DNA of 54,436 nt. Source: a virus. Positions 2,006 to 13,740 of this stretch are shown here, piece by piece; position 1 is the stretch's first letter; every line of letters starts with the position of its first letter. The DNA lies in IMG/VR virus record IMGVR_UViG_3300042473_000184, positions 1-54,436 of that record; one strand, written 5' to 3'. The notes beneath the pieces were generated by a model. It ran no database searches and was not told where the DNA came from. It saw nothing but the letters and a program-made list of their open reading frames with translations. A program made the translations under genes and the position numbers.

Positions 2006-2034
2006 ATTATAGCACCTTACCTACAGATTGTAAA
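2006..2034 (-). promoter_or_regulatory. Promoter for the lysis-region operon
   Basis: Read on the minus strand: -35 TTTACA (2029-2034), a 17-base spacer ending in TGC, then -10 TATAAT (2006-2011). This is a near-consensus sigma-70 promoter with an extended -10. It lies over the end of the carbamoyltransferase gene and directs transcription into the 71-residue protein and the endolysin run. Confidence 0.75.
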
Positions 2035-3438
2035 GTTATATTCTTTTTCCCAAGACAAAACGTCATGCTCGTCATTGATTAGTGGCTGCCCTTTAATATT
2101 TAAACTGGTATTTAATAGTATAGGAACACCAGTAATTGTGTACCAATTAGATAAAACCTCATAAAGACCTGGGTGTTCTTGTTTATTTACTGTTTGAACC
2201 CTTGAGGTTCCATCTTCGTGAACAACAGACGGAATTTTATCTGGCTGCAAACATTTAACCGTATACTGCATGTAAGGGCTTTCAAAATCCATATCAAACC
2301 ATTTGGAGGCATGCTCAGCCATTATTACAGGAGCAAATGGCCTAAAGAGTTCTCTTTGTTTAATTAGATTTACCTTATCTTTTATGCTTGGATCTCTTGG
2401 ATCTGCCAGTATGCTTCTATTTCCTAATGCCCTTGGTCCATATTCTGCTCTGCCTGATGCCACTGCCACAACTTTGTCTCTTATTAGTCCTGTTAATATT
2501 TCTTTTACTGGATATTCCCCGCCCAAATCGTGACCTAGGTAAGGATCTTTCCACTCAAGATGTTTACCATACAGGGCTGCTGCTGCGCCTAATGAACTTC
2601 CAGCATCACCAGGATTTGGCATAATCCAAATCATATCAAAAATATTCCATAGTAATGTATTTGCTGAAGAGTTAAGAGCACACCCACCCATAAATACTAA
2701 ATTATTTTTACCAGTAAGAGACTTTGCCATACGCATAAACTGATTTAGCCTTTGCTCATAAACTACTTGTACTGCTGCTGCAATATCAAATTTATCTTGT
2801 TCTGAAACCCATCCCCAATCAGTAATTCCCTTATGAAAATTATATTTTTGCTCATCGTAATTTGGAAAATATGCGTCAACTTTTTTATAATATTTTGTCC
2901 AATCTCCGTAAGCAGCCATACCCATCATAATATACTCTTCTTGGTTTGGCATAAGACCAATTAGTTGTGTAAATGCAGAGTAAAACAATCCAAAACTGAC
3001 TGGATAGTTTTGCTTATACTTAAGTTTAATCTTATCGCCTTCCCCTACCCAAATTGTGGAGGTATTGTATTCACCTATTGCATCAAGAACTACAATAACT
3101 GCATCACTAAACGCACTTGTGTAGTATCCTGCAGCAGCATGAGAATAATGATGGCTAAAAGATTTTCTAGGAATTCCATCTATATTAAACCTTGGTTTCC
3201 ATTCCCCATAACCACCCCTTAAAGCCAGCCTGGAAGCCTTTAAAAGGGACTTTTCGTAATAGGCGATATGATCTGGTGTCCCATACTGTAAAGCATCTTT
3301 AATTAAATTATCGTTAATATACCAATCATTTTTTTGTTTGCTATATCTTTCTGCATGCCCTGCAAAAAGTATCTCTCCATCTTTAATTAAAGAAACAGAT
3401 GCGTCGTGAGATGTTTCATTAATGCCAAGGATTATCAT
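2017..3438 (-). CDS. NodU/TobZ-family carbamoyltransferase
   Basis: A 473-residue enzyme of the carbamoyltransferase family, which moves a carbamoyl group from carbamoyl phosphate (via carbamoyl adenylate) to a hydroxyl. Seen: SHDASVSLI at residues 10-18, SHHYSHAAAG at 95-104, VVLDAIGE at 117-124, MGGCALNSS near 250, NPGDAGSSLGAA near 275, and C-terminal YGPRALGNRSILADPR and LFRPFAPV. The metal-site segment reads DAIGE where many relatives have DG-GE. It is slightly shorter than typical members (about 550) but both domains are present. The neighbours are oxygenases and a glycosyltransferase-like gene, so the substrate may be a hydroxylated or glycosylated polymer. DNA carbamoylation has precedent in phages, but I see no hydroxymethylase here. 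Confidence 0.88.
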   Translation of the reverse strand: MIILGINETSHDASVSLIKDGEILFAGHAERYSKQKNDWYINDNLIKDALQYGTPDHIAYYEKSLLKASRLALRGGYGEWKPRFNIDGIPRKSFSHHYSHAAAGYYTSAFSDAVIVVLDAIGEYNTSTIWVGEGDKIKLKYKQNYPVSFGLFYSAFTQLIGLMPNQEEYIMMGMAAYGDWTKYYKKVDAYFPNYDEQKYNFHKGITDWGWVSEQDKFDIAAAVQVVYEQRLNQFMRMAKSLTGKNNLVFMGGCALNSSANTLLWNIFDMIWIMPNPGDAGSSLGAAAALYGKHLEWKDPYLGHDLGGEYPVKEILTGLIRDKVVAVASGRAEYGPRALGNRSILADPRDPSIKDKVNLIKQRELFRPFAPVIMAEHASKWFDMDFESPYMQYTVKCLQPDKIPSVVHEDGTSRVQTVNKQEHPGLYEVLSNWYTITGVPILLNTSLNIKGQPLINDEHDVLSWEKEYNFTICR

Positions 3439-4127
3439 TCATCACCAGTTGAATTTCTTTTTTCGTTAAAAGGTATGTTGTGGTACCAGTTTGGTAAAGC
3501 ATATCTTGGACCTTTAGTAACTGGATAAACTTCATGAACATAAAGAAAGTTTGATGGGAAGAATAGTACGCTTCCAGCCTTTGGCTTAAACTTTATGCCA
3601 GAATGCCTAAACTCAATTTCTCCACCTTCGTAGTCATCATTCAGGTATAGCAATACAGACAAGACGCGACTGCTAATCCCCTGGTCCTGATGTGCTGGAA
3701 GATGCCCACTCTTATCATACTTAAGTAAGTGCATCGTGTGCTCTCTAGATTTAATATTTTTTTCTGCAAATGGATATAATTCTGTTGTATAGTGGTTTAA
3801 TGTTTTTTCTAAGGCTCCAAACAACTGTGAAGATATATTTGTTTGTTCATCTTTATAAGCATCTAATGGAGATATGTGTTCAACTTGTGGTATAAATTTT
3901 TGCCAACAAAACATTAACTTATTTTCGCCTTCGCCATAGGTCCATGCAACCCAAGGCTTAACTGATGTGTCTTTTGTTTGCTCAAGGTTGTATCTTGAAT
4001 CTAGATCTTCTATTTGTTTTATTAGTATCTCTGGATTCTCTATTACATTTGTGTAATAAACCATACCAAGATCAAGGACTTCATGATTAAAGGTTGACAA
4101 GTGGGTAATCCTTTGCTTTCCATTCAT
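3435..4127 (-). CDS. Prolyl-4-hydroxylase-like 2OG-Fe(II) oxygenase
   Basis: A 230-residue dioxygenase-like protein. The C-terminal double-stranded beta-helix carries the full iron and 2-oxoglutarate set: His146 and Asp148 in PAHQDQG, distal His198 in YVHEVYPV and Arg208 in KGPRYA, with YEGGEIEF and SVLFFPS between. This is the P4H superfamily layout. Such enzymes hydroxylate protein side chains or small molecules. The first about 110 residues are a helical extension I do not recognise. Its 3' end overlaps the carbamoyltransferase start and its 5' end overlaps the next oxygenase gene by 41 bases. The ribosome site before the ATG at 4127 is weak, so the start is uncertain. Confidence 0.85.
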   Translation of the reverse strand: MNGKQRITHLSTFNHEVLDLGMVYYTNVIENPEILIKQIEDLDSRYNLEQTKDTSVKPWVAWTYGEGENKLMFCWQKFIPQVEHISPLDAYKDEQTNISSQLFGALEKTLNHYTTELYPFAEKNIKSREHTMHLLKYDKSGHLPAHQDQGISSRVLSVLLYLNDDYEGGEIEFRHSGIKFKPKAGSVLFFPSNFLYVHEVYPVTKGPRYALPNWYHNIPFNEKRNSTGDE

Positions 4128-4683
4128 TTTTACCAGGATGAAAATCTGGATCTGCTACTTCAGGAAGACTACTATGCATGTACAATGCAGTAAATCTATT
4201 TCCTCGTGTTACAGTTGTTATTCCGTGAATGTATTCTGTTCCTGCACTTGGGAAAAATACAGCAGAATATTGTTTTGGTTGGTACTCAAACTCTTGATTT
4301 GGAAAATAAATCTTTCCACCGTCATACTCAGATTCATTATTTAAATACATGATTGTGCTCCACTCAATGAATGGCTCTGGGCCCTGTGCATCAATATGCA
4401 TACCACCTTTGGTACCTGTTGCCCAATGAGATCCAAATGCTTTAAAAACATAAATGTCATTTTTAAATCCATTAAGTTCCTTGTGAATTTCATTAGATTT
4501 GTGGCCATACTTTATTAATATGTTCATTACCATATCGTTGTATGGAAGAGATGTACCGCCAAATCTTTTTGCATAATACTCTGGGTATGGATTTCTGATT
4601 GCCTTTGAATCTAACTGCTGATCGATCAGGGTTTGGGCATCTTCTGGATCAATAAAATTATCTATAACTACTATTCTATGCAT
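4087..4683 (-). CDS. Second P4H-like 2OG-Fe(II) oxygenase
   Basis: A 198-residue paralogue of the neighbouring oxygenase. His96 and Asp98 (GMHIDAQ), distal His153 (YIHGITTV) and Arg163 (RGNRFT) form the expected Fe(II)/2-oxoglutarate site, with YDGGKIYFPN and SAVFFPS marking the beta-helix core. The start MHRIVVIDNFI is the usual entry of stand-alone phage P4H-like proteins. AGGAGG sits seven bases before the ATG and an extended -10 lies just upstream, so this gene begins the unit 4683-2017 of two oxygenases plus carbamoyltransferase. The substrate is unknown. Confidence 0.87.
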   Translation of the reverse strand: MHRIVVIDNFIDPEDAQTLIDQQLDSKAIRNPYPEYYAKRFGGTSLPYNDMVMNILIKYGHKSNEIHKELNGFKNDIYVFKAFGSHWATGTKGGMHIDAQGPEPFIEWSTIMYLNNESEYDGGKIYFPNQEFEYQPKQYSAVFFPSAGTEYIHGITTVTRGNRFTALYMHSSLPEVADPDFHPGKNEWKAKDYPLVNL

Positions 4684-9324: not shown

Positions 9325-9546
9325 TTACTGCTCCTTTATTTTAAATACTACCTGGCAAGGATCTCCGCCAGACTCCCACTCTTCTTGCTCTTCATCACTC
9401 ATGTATGGATCTCCATCATGAGTATTACAGAAAGGCTCTGTTATCCATCCACGATCAATTCCATTATTTAGCCAGATTTCAAATTCATCATAATCTAACT
9501 CATTCGCTTGAATACCTTTTAGGATCTCATCAAATTCTTCGCTCAT
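9325..9546 (-). CDS. Acidic 73-residue phage protein, leaderless mRNA
   Basis: Small and strongly acidic, with PFCNTHDGDPYM near the middle and GGDPCQVVFKI at the end. Cys, His, Asp and Cys are spaced in a way that could hold a metal, but I know of no assigned function. The consensus promoter at 9553-9581 puts the expected transcription start on the A of this ATG, so there is no room for a ribosome site. It is followed after six bases by the metalloprotease gene and may help deliver ribosomes to it. Confidence 0.78.
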   Translation of the reverse strand: MSEEFDEILKGIQANELDYDEFEIWLNNGIDRGWITEPFCNTHDGDPYMSDEEQEEWESGGDPCQVVFKIKEQ

Positions 9547-9552
9547 ATATAA

Positions 9553-9581
9553 AGTATATCTCTAAATTCTGACAATGTCAA
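9553..9581 (-). promoter_or_regulatory. Consensus promoter producing a leaderless mRNA
   Basis: Minus strand TTGACA (9576-9581), a 17-base spacer, TATACT (9553-9558), then exactly six bases to the ATG at 9544-9546. Both boxes are near perfect. Initiation about seven bases after the -10 would start the RNA on the start codon. Confidence 0.85.
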
Positions 9582-9616: not shown

Positions 9617-10459
9617 TCACTTATTTTTTTCTAAATATTTTTTATAAATAAAATCAGCCCAGTACTGATGAAATGGCTCCCCAATATGGTCATTGTCGTC
9701 TGCAAGGAATTTTGCATTATCGTTTTCATATAAGTATTTTTTAACAAAACTATTTACATCTGACAATTCATATTGATAGAATGTATTAAAATTATTTATT
9801 TTACTATTTTCTATTCCTAAATATTTTTCGTTTTCACAAGGTGCCCAAGAAAAAGAATATAACTTTATACTATTGCTTTTGCAGTATAGGTCTAACATCA
9901 AGTAATACTGATACGCTAATAAATTTAAAACTTTATCATCTGTTCTAGTTAAAAATGAAAATTTAATAATATTTTTATTATTTATAGAATAAAATCTTGT
10001 AAAATCTGGCATATTTAAAAATATTACATCTGGATTTTTATATGTTTTACAATATTTAAAAATTAAAGAAATGCATTCCATTATTGAAGATCCACTAGAA
10101 CCAATATTAAAATATCCAGATGTAGTGTTGTTTGTTTTTATTTGATCATACACAATCTTTGACCAAACTTTATCGTAAGGCATTCCATTCCCAAAGGTAT
10201 AAGAACAACCTGAAAATAAAATATGCAATCCTTCATGGTCATTTTTAAAACTATCAGATCTAAAATAATTTGAATTTAATTCATTTATATAAAAATTAGG
10301 ATTTGTTTTTTTAAATAGTTCATCCCAATTGCTTATACTTAATGTTTTATTTCTTGCAATTGGAACATCTGAAAAAAAATATAAATCATTATCTGGGTCC
10401 GCATTTGTTATATCTGGGAACATAAAAGGACCCAAAAAAGATTCTTGAAAGTTATCCAT
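9617..10459 (-). CDS. SGNH/GDSL-like hydrolase
   Basis: A 280-residue protein with an SGNH pattern: ILFSGCSYTFGNG (nucleophile candidate Ser86), FNIGSSGSSIMEC with the block II Gly, VIFLNMPDFTR where block III Asn is expected, and near the end DDNDHIGEPFHQYW with an Asp-x-x-His-like pair. Such enzymes are esterases or deacetylases acting on sugars or lipids. The base composition is visibly much richer in A and T than the flanking genes. No ribosome site is seen; its ATG follows directly on the stop of the 28-codon ORF at 10460-10546, suggesting coupling. A role in trimming surface sugars is plausible but not shown. Confidence 0.68.
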   Translation of the reverse strand: MDNFQESFLGPFMFPDITNADPDNDLYFFSDVPIARNKTLSISNWDELFKKTNPNFYINELNSNYFRSDSFKNDHEGLHILFSGCSYTFGNGMPYDKVWSKIVYDQIKTNNTTSGYFNIGSSGSSIMECISLIFKYCKTYKNPDVIFLNMPDFTRFYSINNKNIIKFSFLTRTDDKVLNLLAYQYYLMLDLYCKSNSIKLYSFSWAPCENEKYLGIENSKINNFNTFYQYELSDVNSFVKKYLYENDNAKFLADDNDHIGEPFHQYWADFIYKKYLEKNK

Positions 10460-10546
10460 TTAATAAATTAGCATTCTTTTTTTAATCTTTTTTTTATTTT
10501 TTTTTAATTGAATAATAATTTTTATTTTTTTAATTATTTTCTTCAT
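10460..10546 (-). CDS. Possible 28-residue lysine/isoleucine peptide
   Basis: A tiny frame beginning MKKIIKKIKIII and ending KKRMLIY, about half lysine. It starts in an ATGA overlap with the stop of the protease gene and its stop directly abuts the ATG of the SGNH gene, so it bridges the two without a gap. That arrangement favours a real or at least translated coupling ORF. The DNA is an almost pure A/T tract, so chance is a real alternative. If translated, it would be a cationic amphipathic helix. Confidence 0.35.
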   Translation of the reverse strand: MKKIIKKIKIIIQLKKNKKKIKKRMLIY

Positions 10547-11067
10547 ATACTCACTACGTCAACTGGACCCATGCAAGATGGATTAAATTTAATTGCAGAA
10601 TTGACTGCTTGGACCACTCTGTTCCTTGCATTTTTCTGTTTATCTGTTGCATATAAAACCCCATAAGCATACTCTGCTCCTGAGCCCATGGCAAGATATG
10701 GAAGTGTGTACTTAGATAAAGACATATCAGCAGAACTGTGCTCATAGATTTGACCACGAACTGCAATGATTAAACCAAGGTCTCCGTCTTTAGATGTATC
10801 AACCCAAAACTCATTATAAAATTCTTTTAGTTCTTTAATAAATCTAGTCTGCATAAACTTATCTGTATCTTTAATATTTGGCGGAGTTGGCTTAAAGTTA
10901 TAGCGGATTCTTTCTCCGTCCATTGCTCCAGCATACCCAATAAGATAAGGACCTATCTTCCAAACCTTTGGTGCTTCAAGTGCTAAAATAGTACCATCAT
11001 CTGATGCTCCACGATCTCCTGCCATATAAATTTTATCTTCATGTCGAACAACAGCAATACAAGTCAT
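10543..11067 (-). CDS. HslV / 20S proteasome beta-like protease
   Basis: A 174-residue Ntn-hydrolase. After removal of Met1, the catalytic set falls on canonical proteasome numbering: Thr1 (MTCIAVV), Asp17 (AGDRGAS), Lys33 (APKVWKI) and Ser128 in AMGSGAEYAYG. The strand pattern around YLIGYAG is also typical. HslV and beta subunits assemble into rings and need an ATPase partner; none is seen here, so it may use a host ATPase or act alone. The ATG at 11065-11067 follows GGAGAGGG by eight bases. An upstream in-frame extension to 11133 is rejected because it runs through the promoter at 11100-11129. Possible roles are structural protein processing or attack on host proteins. Confidence 0.85.
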   Translation of the reverse strand: MTCIAVVRHEDKIYMAGDRGASDDGTILALEAPKVWKIGPYLIGYAGAMDGERIRYNFKPTPPNIKDTDKFMQTRFIKELKEFYNEFWVDTSKDGDLGLIIAVRGQIYEHSSADMSLSKYTLPYLAMGSGAEYAYGVLYATDKQKNARNRVVQAVNSAIKFNPSCMGPVDVVSI

Positions 11068-11073
11068 GGCAAA

Positions 11074-11124
11074 AGCCCTCTCCAGATAGGTTATACTCAA
11101 GTATACCATTGCCCAGAGAGGGCT
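11074..11124 (-). promoter_or_regulatory. 9-bp inverted repeat that can hide a ribosome site
   Basis: AGCCCTCTC (11116-11124) and GAGAGGGCT (11074-11082) are perfect complements 33 bases apart on the minus strand. The downstream arm contains the ribosome site of the protease gene; the upstream arm lies between the -35 and -10 boxes. RNA from this promoter would lack the upstream arm, while read-through RNA from 11146 and above would contain both. An inner TATAC-TTGA-GTATA dyad overlaps the -10. Confidence 0.6.
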
Positions 11125-11129
11125 GTCAA
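11100..11129 (-). promoter_or_regulatory. Strong promoter of the HslV-like gene
   Basis: Minus strand: perfect -35 TTGACA (11124-11129), 18-base spacer ending TGG, -10 TATACT (11100-11105) with extended -10. The predicted start near 11093 leaves a leader of about 26 bases with GGAGAGGG. Confidence 0.85.
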
Positions 11130-11145
11130 GCAAGGTTAATAATGA

Positions 11146-11430
11146 TTAATTAGCCTTTTTGTCTACAGATTTAAAGGCGTCATTTATTTCTGCCAATGAT
11201 AGCCTTCCATCGTCCAAAAAAGCCCTTGCCAGTCTTTCAATAACTGTTGCTACTCCTAAGAGTCCTGCAAGCATAACTGCCTGAACCGTGTCAATTCCTA
11301 CTACGGCTCCTGCTCCCAAGACTGATAGTCCTGATGCTGCAAATACCGCAAGAATTCTCATCAGAATATTTGTTATTGCTTTCTGTGGGTGCTCCTGCTT
11401 TGGGGGTTCTACTACTTTTTTAATTGCCAT
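11146..11430 (-). CDS. Small membrane protein, possible holin
   Basis: A 94-residue protein with a basic proline-containing N-terminus. Two hydrophobic segments follow (about residues 22-42 and 47-64), then a charged C-terminal helix (LARAFLDDGRLSLAEINDAF). AGGAGA precedes the ATG. Proteins of this shape are common in actinophages and are often listed as membrane or holin-like proteins; I am not sure of the family. It follows another small membrane protein and a C-terminally anchored surface protein, which together make a membrane-associated run ending before the protease promoter. Confidence 0.7.
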   Translation of the reverse strand: MAIKKVVEPPKQEHPQKAITNILMRILAVFAASGLSVLGAGAVVGIDTVQAVMLAGLLGVATVIERLARAFLDDGRLSLAEINDAFKSVDKKAN

Positions 11431-11431
11431 T

Positions 11432-11659
11432 TTATTTCTCCTTTCTTAGCGGGATTGTAATTAGCCAAATAATTGTTGTTGCAAGCACTGCAATACCAAC
11501 AATGTCTCTTGCTGATCCCGTCAAAGTTAGCCATGCGATAAAGAAGCCAAGGAGGGTGAATGCCTGTGCGATTAATTCCATTCCTGCGTCTTTAAACCAT
11601 TTAGTTAATCCCTTGAGTGCTTTACCCACAAGACTAACTGCTTTGTTGATTATTTTCAT
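11432..11659 (-). CDS. Small membrane protein with amphipathic N-terminus
   Basis: A 75-residue protein. Residues 1-27 could form a basic amphipathic helix (INKAVSLVGKALKGLTKWF), followed by two hydrophobic segments (about 31-48 and 52-70) and a basic end (PLRKEK). It starts in an ATGA overlap with the PA14 protein stop, with GGAGG just before, so the two are coexpressed. It may be a holin component or a partner of the anchored PA14 protein; context only. Confidence 0.7.
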   Translation of the reverse strand: MKIINKAVSLVGKALKGLTKWFKDAGMELIAQAFTLLGFFIAWLTLTGSARDIVGIAVLATTIIWLITIPLRKEK

Positions 11660-13740
11660 TTGTTCCTCCTTATGACTGCCCCTGCAATTTGTGATACGAT
11701 GATCACTGGGACAATTACTTCTTGCGCTTTCTCTCTCTGATCGTCTGTCATATCCATACCTAACTCAGAGAAATTAGATAGGAGTTCTGTAACATCCACT
11801 TCAAATACTGCTGCAAGTGGGTCTGCTAAGAATGCTTCTGTTTGTACTTCTGTTACTGCATCCGCTAATGTAAATGGCATTGGGGTTTCTCCCGCCTCTG
11901 CTTCTCTATCTGAAAACTCAACAAATGCTTCTGCAAGTGCTGGGTTAGATTTCATCTGCTGTGCAATCTGTGCAACTTCTGAAGGCTTAATACCAAGGTC
12001 TTGTGCAACCTCAGCCTTTGCTTCTTGAGTCAATGCTCTAAGTGTTTGGCTAACTGCTGTTACTTGTTCAGGGGAAAGAGTAACTAACTTATTATCACTG
12101 CTTGTAAGGTTAGCAATAACATTAGATAGATCTTCTTCTGTTCCAGTTCCTTTTTCAGGAACAAGGGCTGCTAATACCTCATCTTCAATTACTACATCTG
12201 GTTCAGTCCAAGGGTTTTCTTCTGGCTTTGGCTCTGGGCCAGGTTCTGGTGAAGGTTCTGGAGCAGGCTCTTCAGTTGTCTCTGGGGTAGGTTCTGGAGA
12301 AGGCTCAGGTGTTGGTGGTTCCTCTGGGGTAGGCTCTGGTGTAGGCTCCTCTGCAGGGTCCACTGTAGGCTCTGGAGAAGGCTCTGGTGTAGGAGGCTCT
12401 TCTGCCGTAGGTTCAGGGCTTGGTTCTGGCGTAGGAGGCTCTTCTGGTGTTGGTTCTGGACTTGGCTCAGGAGTAGGTGGCTCTTCAGCAGTTGGCTCTG
12501 GGCTTGGTTCTGGGCTAGGCTGATTGGCTGCAGCGTTGGCTGCTGCCTGTGCAATAGCAGACTGAATTTCTCTTTGTGATTGCTCATCATAGTAACGCCA
12601 TGCATCATCAATTGCGCTGTTGACATTATTAATTGCTTGATTATATGCGCTAATAGCATTGTTTTTATTTTGCAATGCCGTTGCAACATTTAAAACTGCG
12701 TTGTTATATTCATTTGTTTTATTAGTTAGTGTTTGATTGTAACCATTAAGTGTTGATACTGCTTGGTTATAAACATTTAATTTATCATTATATACATCTT
12801 GGGCTAAGTTTTTTGCAGAAAGGGCATTGTTGTATTCGTTGGTTTGTTCTTGGGTTGCTCCAGATCCATGAGAAAATGTATTTAGATTACAACTAAAGTT
12901 TTGTCCCCATACTCTTGGGCTTCCAGAATAGTCACATCCTGCACCAGTCCATCCTCCAGGAATACCCCAACCAAGATTATAGGAACCTACTCCTCCGCCG
13001 TTATACCACCAAATTTCTACATCAAAAACCTTGTCACTTGTTACATCATATACTGGAGAATAATCACTCCAAGTTGCTCCTTGCTCTACCCAGTTATCTA
13101 TGGCCAATGATCCATCAATATACATTCTAAAACCATCATCTGTATATCCTGCAAAGTATGCTTGCGTAAACCATGATGGAACAGTTATCTGTCCAGTAAA
13201 TTTAACTATAAAGTTTTCATATCTATTACCACAAACTGGGCGAGTCATATAGTTTCCATTTAGTGTTCCACTACATAAGAATTCATCTGTGGCTGCAAGT
13301 CCATTAACTCTAATTAGACTATAAACATCGTATGCCAAACCAGCAGAACCAGCACTGTCTAATGCTTGCTGAGCGTTTGAAAGATTAATGTTGGCTACTC
13401 CAAGTGCATCGTAGGCATCATTCTTATTGTCTAAAGCAGTGGCTACTGTTACTGTTTGTTCATCTACTGCTGATTGGGCTAATTCTTTTTCTTCAAGTGC
13501 CGTGGTTTCTGCGTCAAGAGAGTCATCATATAGGTCAGAGGTTTGAGACTGGGCTGATTGTGCAGATACTGCAAGGTCGTATTTATCTTCTGCTTCTTCA
13601 ATTAGGGATATAAGTTCATCTTGGTAGCCAAGGTCATCTACGCTATTGTTGAGTTCTTCAATTTCTTGGGCTGCAACTGTTAGGGGGTCATCAGAGTGGG
13701 CACCTTCTGGAGAGATAATAAGCCAGCCAAATGCTAACAA
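11656..13740 (-). CDS. Membrane-anchored PA14 surface protein with PEPS/PEPT repeat
   Basis: A 694-residue protein from the TTG at 13738-13740. In order: a hydrophobic N-terminal segment, a helical coiled-coil-like region (20-130), a PA14-like beta domain (about 150-275, with YTDDGFRMYIDGSLAIDNW and DVEIWWYNGGGVG), a second coiled-coil region (285-400), and a Pro/Glu/Thr/Ser repeat (about 400-515). A helical acidic region and a terminal hydrophobic helix ending IRRNK follow. PA14 domains bind glycans in many adhesins. The frame stays open upstream to GTA ATC AAA AAA, which would add KKLIRIAAVTL, a typical signal-peptide start after GGGGG, so the true start is probably the non-standard ATC at 13771-13773. 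A surface-displayed host-modifying protein is the likeliest reading. Confidence 0.75.
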   Translation of the reverse strand: MLAFGWLIISPEGAHSDDPLTVAAQEIEELNNSVDDLGYQDELISLIEEAEDKYDLAVSAQSAQSQTSDLYDDSLDAETTALEEKELAQSAVDEQTVTVATALDNKNDAYDALGVANINLSNAQQALDSAGSAGLAYDVYSLIRVNGLAATDEFLCSGTLNGNYMTRPVCGNRYENFIVKFTGQITVPSWFTQAYFAGYTDDGFRMYIDGSLAIDNWVEQGATWSDYSPVYDVTSDKVFDVEIWWYNGGGVGSYNLGWGIPGGWTGAGCDYSGSPRVWGQNFSCNLNTFSHGSGATQEQTNEYNNALSAKNLAQDVYNDKLNVYNQAVSTLNGYNQTLTNKTNEYNNAVLNVATALQNKNNAISAYNQAINNVNSAIDDAWRYYDEQSQREIQSAIAQAAANAAANQPSPEPSPEPTAEEPPTPEPSPEPTPEEPPTPEPSPEPTAEEPPTPEPSPEPTVDPAEEPTPEPTPEEPPTPEPSPEPTPETTEEPAPEPSPEPGPEPKPEENPWTEPDVVIEDEVLAALVPEKGTGTEEDLSNVIANLTSSDNKLVTLSPEQVTAVSQTLRALTQEAKAEVAQDLGIKPSEVAQIAQQMKSNPALAEAFVEFSDREAEAGETPMPFTLADAVTEVQTEAFLADPLAAVFEVDVTELLSNFSELGMDMTDDQREKAQEVIVPVIIVSQIAGAVIRRNK
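12200..12530 (-). repeat. Degenerate repeat coding for PEPSPEPT-type units
   Basis: Tandem units encoding about PTPEPSPEPTAEEP are repeated at least five times with silent and small changes, inside the PA14 protein. The codons vary between units, so this is a protein-level repeat rather than a recent DNA expansion. It would form an extended, rigid stalk rich in Pro and Thr. Confidence 0.8.

Follow-up and report, generated by a model that had tools for sequence, protein, structure and literature searches.

A phage proteasome homologue of the HslV/BPH fold with a promoter nested in a predicted leader hairpin

Results

The window encodes a group I proteasome homologue

What does an HslV-like protease do for a phage, with which partners does it work, and how is its synthesis controlled? 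These questions are raised by a minus-strand gene in a 54,436-nt stretch of viral DNA, the whole of which we refer to as the window. An earlier note on this DNA had placed a proteasome beta/HslV-like protease at 10543-11129. The minus-strand ORF is real, but the coding sequence of this HslV-like Ntn threonine hydrolase spans 10543..11067 (minus strand), opening with an ATG and encoding a 174-aa protein that begins MTCIAV; position 11129 is the first base of a -35 box, and a longer frame, extending up to 11133, would need a TTG start.

The whole protein matches PHROG 1040 (‘peptidase HslV family’; E=6e-23), and it scores 24.2 bits against Pfam Proteasome (PF00227; cutoff 22.4) with hmmscan. For a family profile built from a 64-sequence alignment, the best matches in the PDB were HslV (1m4y, E=4e-14) and BPH (5ovu, 4e-12). 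HslV and BPH outscored 20S beta subunits over the full length, and the match of actinobacterial (mycobacterial and rhodococcal) 20S beta subunits to the profile was limited to the first 48 residues. An AlphaFold monomer model of the protease (pLDDT 94.5, pTM 0.90) has helices H1-H4 at residues 51-57, 68-86, 131-140 and 147-161, with the catalytic Thr as residue 2 and no propeptide. Foldseek matched this model to 1210 PDB chains at E<=0.001, with TM-scores of 0.80 for BPH and 0.77 for HslV; other phage HslV-like proteins gave TM-scores of 0.9. The best structural matches, BPH (PDB 5ovs, 5ovu) and HslV (1m4y), are only 18-23% identical to the window protein, which is shorter than BPH and has neither a propeptide nor an accompanying hslU. 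The Foldseek comparison that the earlier note had suggested returns a proteasome/HslV fold, nearest to BPH and HslV. We conclude that the protease is a phage group I proteasome homologue with an HslV/BPH fold, AAH-like and belonging to PHROG 1040.

Once Met1 is lost, the catalytic positions are T1, D17, K33 and S128, the last in a GSG motif. All four had been described as aligning canonically; T1, D17 and K33 are indeed in register. Searching annotated phages by tblastn gave 154 records, whose sources include T5-like, Vibrio, Psychrobacter and Moorella phages. T1, D17 and K33 are invariant in 11/11 divergent phage homologues (24-29% identity to the window protein) that were found by plain tblastn and not selected for these residues, whereas the serine position of GSG is occupied by S, C or T in the same 11. 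The oxyanion-glycine site (Gly47) is Gly in the clade of the window protein (YAGAM) and Ser in most relatives (FTSSF), such that neither the GSG serine nor the oxyanion glycine is conserved family-wide. Larger sets, comprising the 64-sequence alignment and a collection of genome loci, were gathered with a DNA pattern that demands MTCI, G-D and K-V; conservation of T1, D17 and K33 in those sets is therefore conditioned by the pattern, and we do not count it as evidence. The earlier note had held that a Thr not conserved among homologues would speak against its reading, and in the unselected set of 11 Thr1 is invariant. These data support Thr1, exposed by removal of Met1, as the predicted nucleophile of a threonine hydrolase.

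AAH appears to be the closest published subfamily

In a survey in which they named 22 new proteasome homologues, Fuchs, Alva and Lupas described AAH from alpha-proteobacteria, Actinobacteria and phages, with neither a function nor a co-occurring AAA+ partner known; no AAH-encoding Actinobacteria-specific phage could be found (PMC8665760). The window protein resembles AAH in its compact group I architecture: it has helices H1-H4 and Thr1/Asp17/Lys33, and lacks a propeptide. It differs in that its clade is virus-only, actinophage-borne and 24-39% identical to other members. Judged by these features rather than by the published CLANS map, AAH appears to be the closest published subfamily and a better fit than PPH. 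We rejected PPH as an assignment: PPH proteins have ~140 residues and are missing H2, whereas the window protein has 174 residues and helix 68-86 is present.

In a phylogenetic tree in which many deep branches are unresolved, the window protein groups with viral sequences alone, in a clade of 14 rows (SH-aLRT 96). Actinobacterial AAH proteins are separate from this clade, and relatives from typical AAH hosts lie in other subclades. All of the 80 genome loci fetched by the family pattern are homologues, mostly from relatives of Azospirillum, rhizobia and Actinoplanes. Proteins of PHROG 1040 (from T5-like phages such as EPS7, from Vibrio and Moorella phages and from others) match the window protein over its full length, but in T5-like and Vibrio phages the gene lies among nucleotide metabolism genes, as opposed to late and lysis genes in the window. 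Homologues are also encoded by isolated phages with actinobacterial hosts, namely Planktophila phage LanE43-AprE7, DSL-LC01, Pumpernickel and the Arthrobacter phage Hum25. These proteins start MTTI rather than the MTCI of the window clade, and they fall outside that clade in the tree, with weak support. The record name of LanE43-AprE7 (OX376640.1, L090), which encodes a distant homologue, suggests that this is the Planktophila phage E7 of PMC10202952; the main text of that paper makes no mention of a protease. In DSL-LC01 (L310), the gene next after the HslV-like gene encodes WhiB.

The gene is abundant in viral contigs and under strong selection

At least 545 related stretches are present in viral contigs. 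Among the best 80 of these, the proteins are 94-100% identical, with DNA differences of as much as 17%. Relative to the window, dN/dS is 0.025-0.05 for close relatives and up to 0.15 for more distant ones. By these sequence comparisons, the protease is under strong, indeed extreme, purifying selection. Selection of this strength is that expected of a core enzyme, which suggests that the protease has an important role in infection.

The DNA polymerase and terminase of the phage are ~54% identical to those of Streptomyces phages of the Stanwilliamsviridae, and 4/6 contigs of the phage group encode WhiB, which the window lacks. As a control for the WhiB search, 14 genomes were scanned, and only Corynebacterium gave a match. 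Hence, the host is very probably an actinobacterium, as the earlier note had supposed. We found no relative of the window protein in the genome contigs scanned with it, which argues against a prophage or a close host homologue in that set, and the protease was not found in the Stanwilliamsviridae phage BillNye.

A predicted hairpin encloses the promoter and hides the Shine-Dalgarno sequence in read-through RNA

The protease gene has its own sigma-A-type promoter, comprising a -35 hexamer TTGACA (11124..11129, minus strand) and, at a spacing of 18 nt, a -10 hexamer TATACT (11100..11105, minus strand) preceded by an extended TG. It matches consensus at 11/12 positions, as do only four sites in the window, so the strong promoter claimed previously stands. 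TTGAC is retained in nearly all relatives. RNA that reads through from upstream is predicted to form a long hairpin (11074..11124, minus strand) that encloses the -10 box and has two stems, an outer one of 13 bp and an inner one, GGUAUAC. At ~-26 kcal/mol, this hairpin is the most stable among 57 gene starts in the window. The Shine-Dalgarno sequence GGAGAGGG (11076..11083, minus strand), just 5′ of the protease ATG, lies in the 3′ arm. In computed folds, it is buried in the read-through RNA, whereas RNA initiated at the promoter is missing the 5′ arm and leaves it unpaired.

Since the stems are offset by one base from group to group in a MAFFT alignment of the leaders, pairing was assessed by per-sequence duplex and fold tests instead. 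For 42 distinct leaders, the mean energy of their own folds was -24.4 kcal/mol, as compared to -20.3 (sd 0.5) when the 5′ half of one leader was joined to the 3′ half of another; 0/2000 such permutations reached a value as low as that of the own folds, indicating that the arms co-vary. A strong hairpin is found in 35/42 leaders. In the other seven (L031, L032, L147, L111, L125, L117 and L136), the promoter is kept but the strong hairpin is absent. We rejected an intrinsic terminator as an explanation for the stem, which is followed by only 3-4 U and gave a negative result in a terminator scan.

An inverted repeat around a promoter could also act as DNA, as an operator for a repressor. The repeat is indeed centred near the transcription start, and its inner part forms a GGTATA...TATACC dyad. 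However, when all mismatches were scored alike, the stems contained 15 G-U (G-T in DNA) and 1 A-C, with ~10 of the 15 apparently independent given that the leaders are related; a DNA dyad should favour neither. The excess speaks for pairing within the sense transcript, and we regard an operator as unlikely.

There is a precedent for such a leader. In the T4 genes e, soc, 49 and I-TevI, longer transcripts fold into a hairpin that masks the ribosome binding site (PMC3014915, PMC2988022). There too the promoter lies in or beside the 5′ arm, and RNA started at the promoter omits that arm. T4 is an unrelated phage, however, and uses a late promoter at these genes, whereas that in the window is of the host sigma-A type; hence, the timing is probably the reverse of that in T4. 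By analogy, we infer that the leader belongs to the type of T4 gene e, sequestering the ribosome binding site and so limiting translation. The protein family was known before; what is new is the hairpin-nested promoter arrangement, which has not been reported earlier.

A small gene is linked to the protease gene

Across relatives, the gene order is conserved: terminase, two genes, two small ORFs, protease, a small acidic gene and endolysin. The small gene of the window (9325..9546, minus strand) encodes a 73-aa acidic protein with invariant C40, T42, H43 and C64 (C..TH..DPC). It has no homologue in annotated phages or Pfam and only weak PHROG matches, and its structure model is poor (pLDDT 54). 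The distance from the protease stop to the start of the small gene is exactly 15 nt in 104/117 informative contigs. The window and several relatives have other genes inserted at this point; in the window the insertion is a 280-aa ORF (9617..10459, minus strand) that is absent there in most relatives. A promoter, TTGACA-17-TATACT (9553..9581, minus strand), ends 6 nt before the ATG of the small gene, a leaderless arrangement, and TTGACA-17-TATA(C/A)T is found 6 nt from the ATG in 5/5 arrangements seen. In genomes without an insertion, the -35 hexamer lies inside the last protease codons, with the -10 hexamer again ending 6 nt before the ATG. We considered the inserted genes as a source of new promoters and rejected this, since in most relatives the -35 of the small gene is already in the last protease codons. 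The arrangement predicts a leaderless mRNA for the small gene. The 73-aa protein is possibly a partner of the protease, although overlap of the promoter with the end of the protease gene could by itself tie the two genes together, which makes their linkage weak evidence of joint function.

In a second HslV-like clade, the protease promoter itself lies 6-7 nt from the ATG, a leaderless arrangement. Members of the leaderless clade (L092, L106, L146, L166, L183 and L191-L193) encode a small four-cysteine, zinc-ribbon-like protein 11-17 nt downstream. A similar four-cysteine protein is encoded by a gene overlapping the end of the HslV-like gene in L115 and L163.

Other genes near the protease gene in the window, all on the minus strand, include 11146-11430, which encodes a small protein with a hydrophobic stretch (PHROG 26427, labelled ‘nuclease’, though it looks more like a membrane or holin-like protein), and, in the late region, 11656-13740, which encodes a long protein that combines a PA14 domain with a stretch of PEPSPEPT-type repeats. 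The variable region between the small gene and endolysin includes a Nol-like carbamoyltransferase match and two 2OG-Fe(II) oxygenase-family matches (2017-4683, minus strand). In six distant phage relatives (L098, L113, L131, L158, L174 and L187), a terminase- or portal-like gene adjoins the HslV-like gene.

No ATPase partner or alpha subunit was found in the phage

A phage ATPase partner, for which the earlier note had proposed a search, did not emerge from the window or its relatives. We found no AAA_2 (HslU/Clp-type) match in the window, in five relatives of 72-106 kb or in DSL-LC01, records that may be incomplete. The window and the five relatives likewise gave no match to AAA; these are contigs of uncertain completeness, in which a partner ATPase could be missed. 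The window yielded no second PF00227-like match and no alpha subunit, although a PF00227 search of it at E<=0.001 also missed the protease that hmmscan detects.

As had been claimed, the protease gene is far from the capsid genes, with the major head gene ~42 kb away. One relative, 93% identical in its capsid protein, encodes an S78 prohead protease (PHROG 9427, E=1e-110) directly upstream of the capsid gene; hence, capsid maturation is unlikely to be the task of the HslV-like protein.

Discussion

The account that we favour, and to which we give somewhat better than even weight, is of an AAH-like group I homologue acting as a Thr1 hydrolase, free of any unfoldase, with expression insulated by a hairpin. 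Host sigma-A RNA polymerase would start at the gene's own promoter, yielding RNA that lacks the 5′ arm of the hairpin, leaves the Shine-Dalgarno sequence free and so allows the protease to be made. On read-through RNA from upstream genes, the hairpin would hide the Shine-Dalgarno sequence, and often the start codon, such that the protease would not be translated. In the protein, removal of Met1 would expose Thr1 as the nucleophile, with Asp17 and Lys33 activating it. If HslV and BPH are a guide, the subunits probably assemble into a homo-oligomer, either a single or a double ring, that encloses the active sites. Since the phage has no HslU-type partner that we could find, and HslV/HslU is not an actinobacterial system, the protease would most likely act without an unfoldase, cleaving, at an early stage of infection, a limited range of host or phage proteins that are unfolded or are delivered to it. 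The sole basis for early timing is the resemblance of the promoter to the host sigma-A type, from which we infer it. BPH, the nearest relative with a solved structure, forms 14-mers, has a free Thr1 and binds epoxomicin, yet it is inert in standard protease assays (PMC5777263); it is therefore quite possible that the phage protease, too, accepts few substrates or needs an activator that is missing.

A proteasome-fold Ntn enzyme need not form a degradative barrel, and the protein may instead have one specific job, as a processing peptidase, an amidase or a connectase-like ligase. The homologue family is functionally diverse, with connectase being a monomeric ligase (PMC8665760); BPH lacks general protease activity (PMC5777263), and no unfoldase is encoded nearby. 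The structure model, however, has both helix pairs of H1-H4 and no connectase-type active-site insertion, and we hold this alternative to be a serious but minority one. Actinobacteria possess several AAA+ unfoldases, and the related HslV functions only with an unfoldase, so the protein could be a protease core that borrows a host ring such as ClpX, ClpC or Mpa/ARC. We think this rather improbable: no co-occurring AAA+ partner was found for the family (PMC8665760). Nor would a ready-made HslU be expected, since HslV is absent from the Actinobacteria entries of Table 1 in the same survey (PMC8665760).

Two further alternatives seem very improbable. Many Actinobacteria have a 20S proteasome, with which the phage subunit might co-assemble, as in the hybrid rings raised by the earlier note, or which it might poison. 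Neither idea finds support in a protein that is nearest to BPH and HslV rather than to 20S beta subunits, those of mycobacteria and rhodococci matching only over the first 48 residues, that belongs to a virus-only clade not derived from a host beta subunit, and that has no alpha subunit alongside it. Least probable of all is capsid maturation, which the terminase and portal neighbours of the gene in several distant relatives might suggest, but against which stand the ~42 kb to the capsid gene and the S78 prohead protease of the relative with the 93% identical capsid protein.

Beyond the favoured account of an unfoldase-free Thr1 hydrolase, we put forward a broader picture only tentatively. The protease would represent a lineage of proteasome homologues that is confined to viruses, is very abundant among freshwater actinophages and works without an unfoldase, together with the small conserved Cys/His protein encoded 15 nt downstream. 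Its synthesis would be insulated from read-through in two ways: one clade would use a hairpin that hides the Shine-Dalgarno sequence, and another a leaderless promoter.

The locus places a large clade of proteasome homologues in phages of abundant freshwater Actinobacteria, where the survey of AAH had found none. The hairpin-nested promoter offers a direct handle on the gene, and predicts when the protease is made. If the proposed mode of working is true, this would be a compartment-type protease used by a virus without an ATPase.
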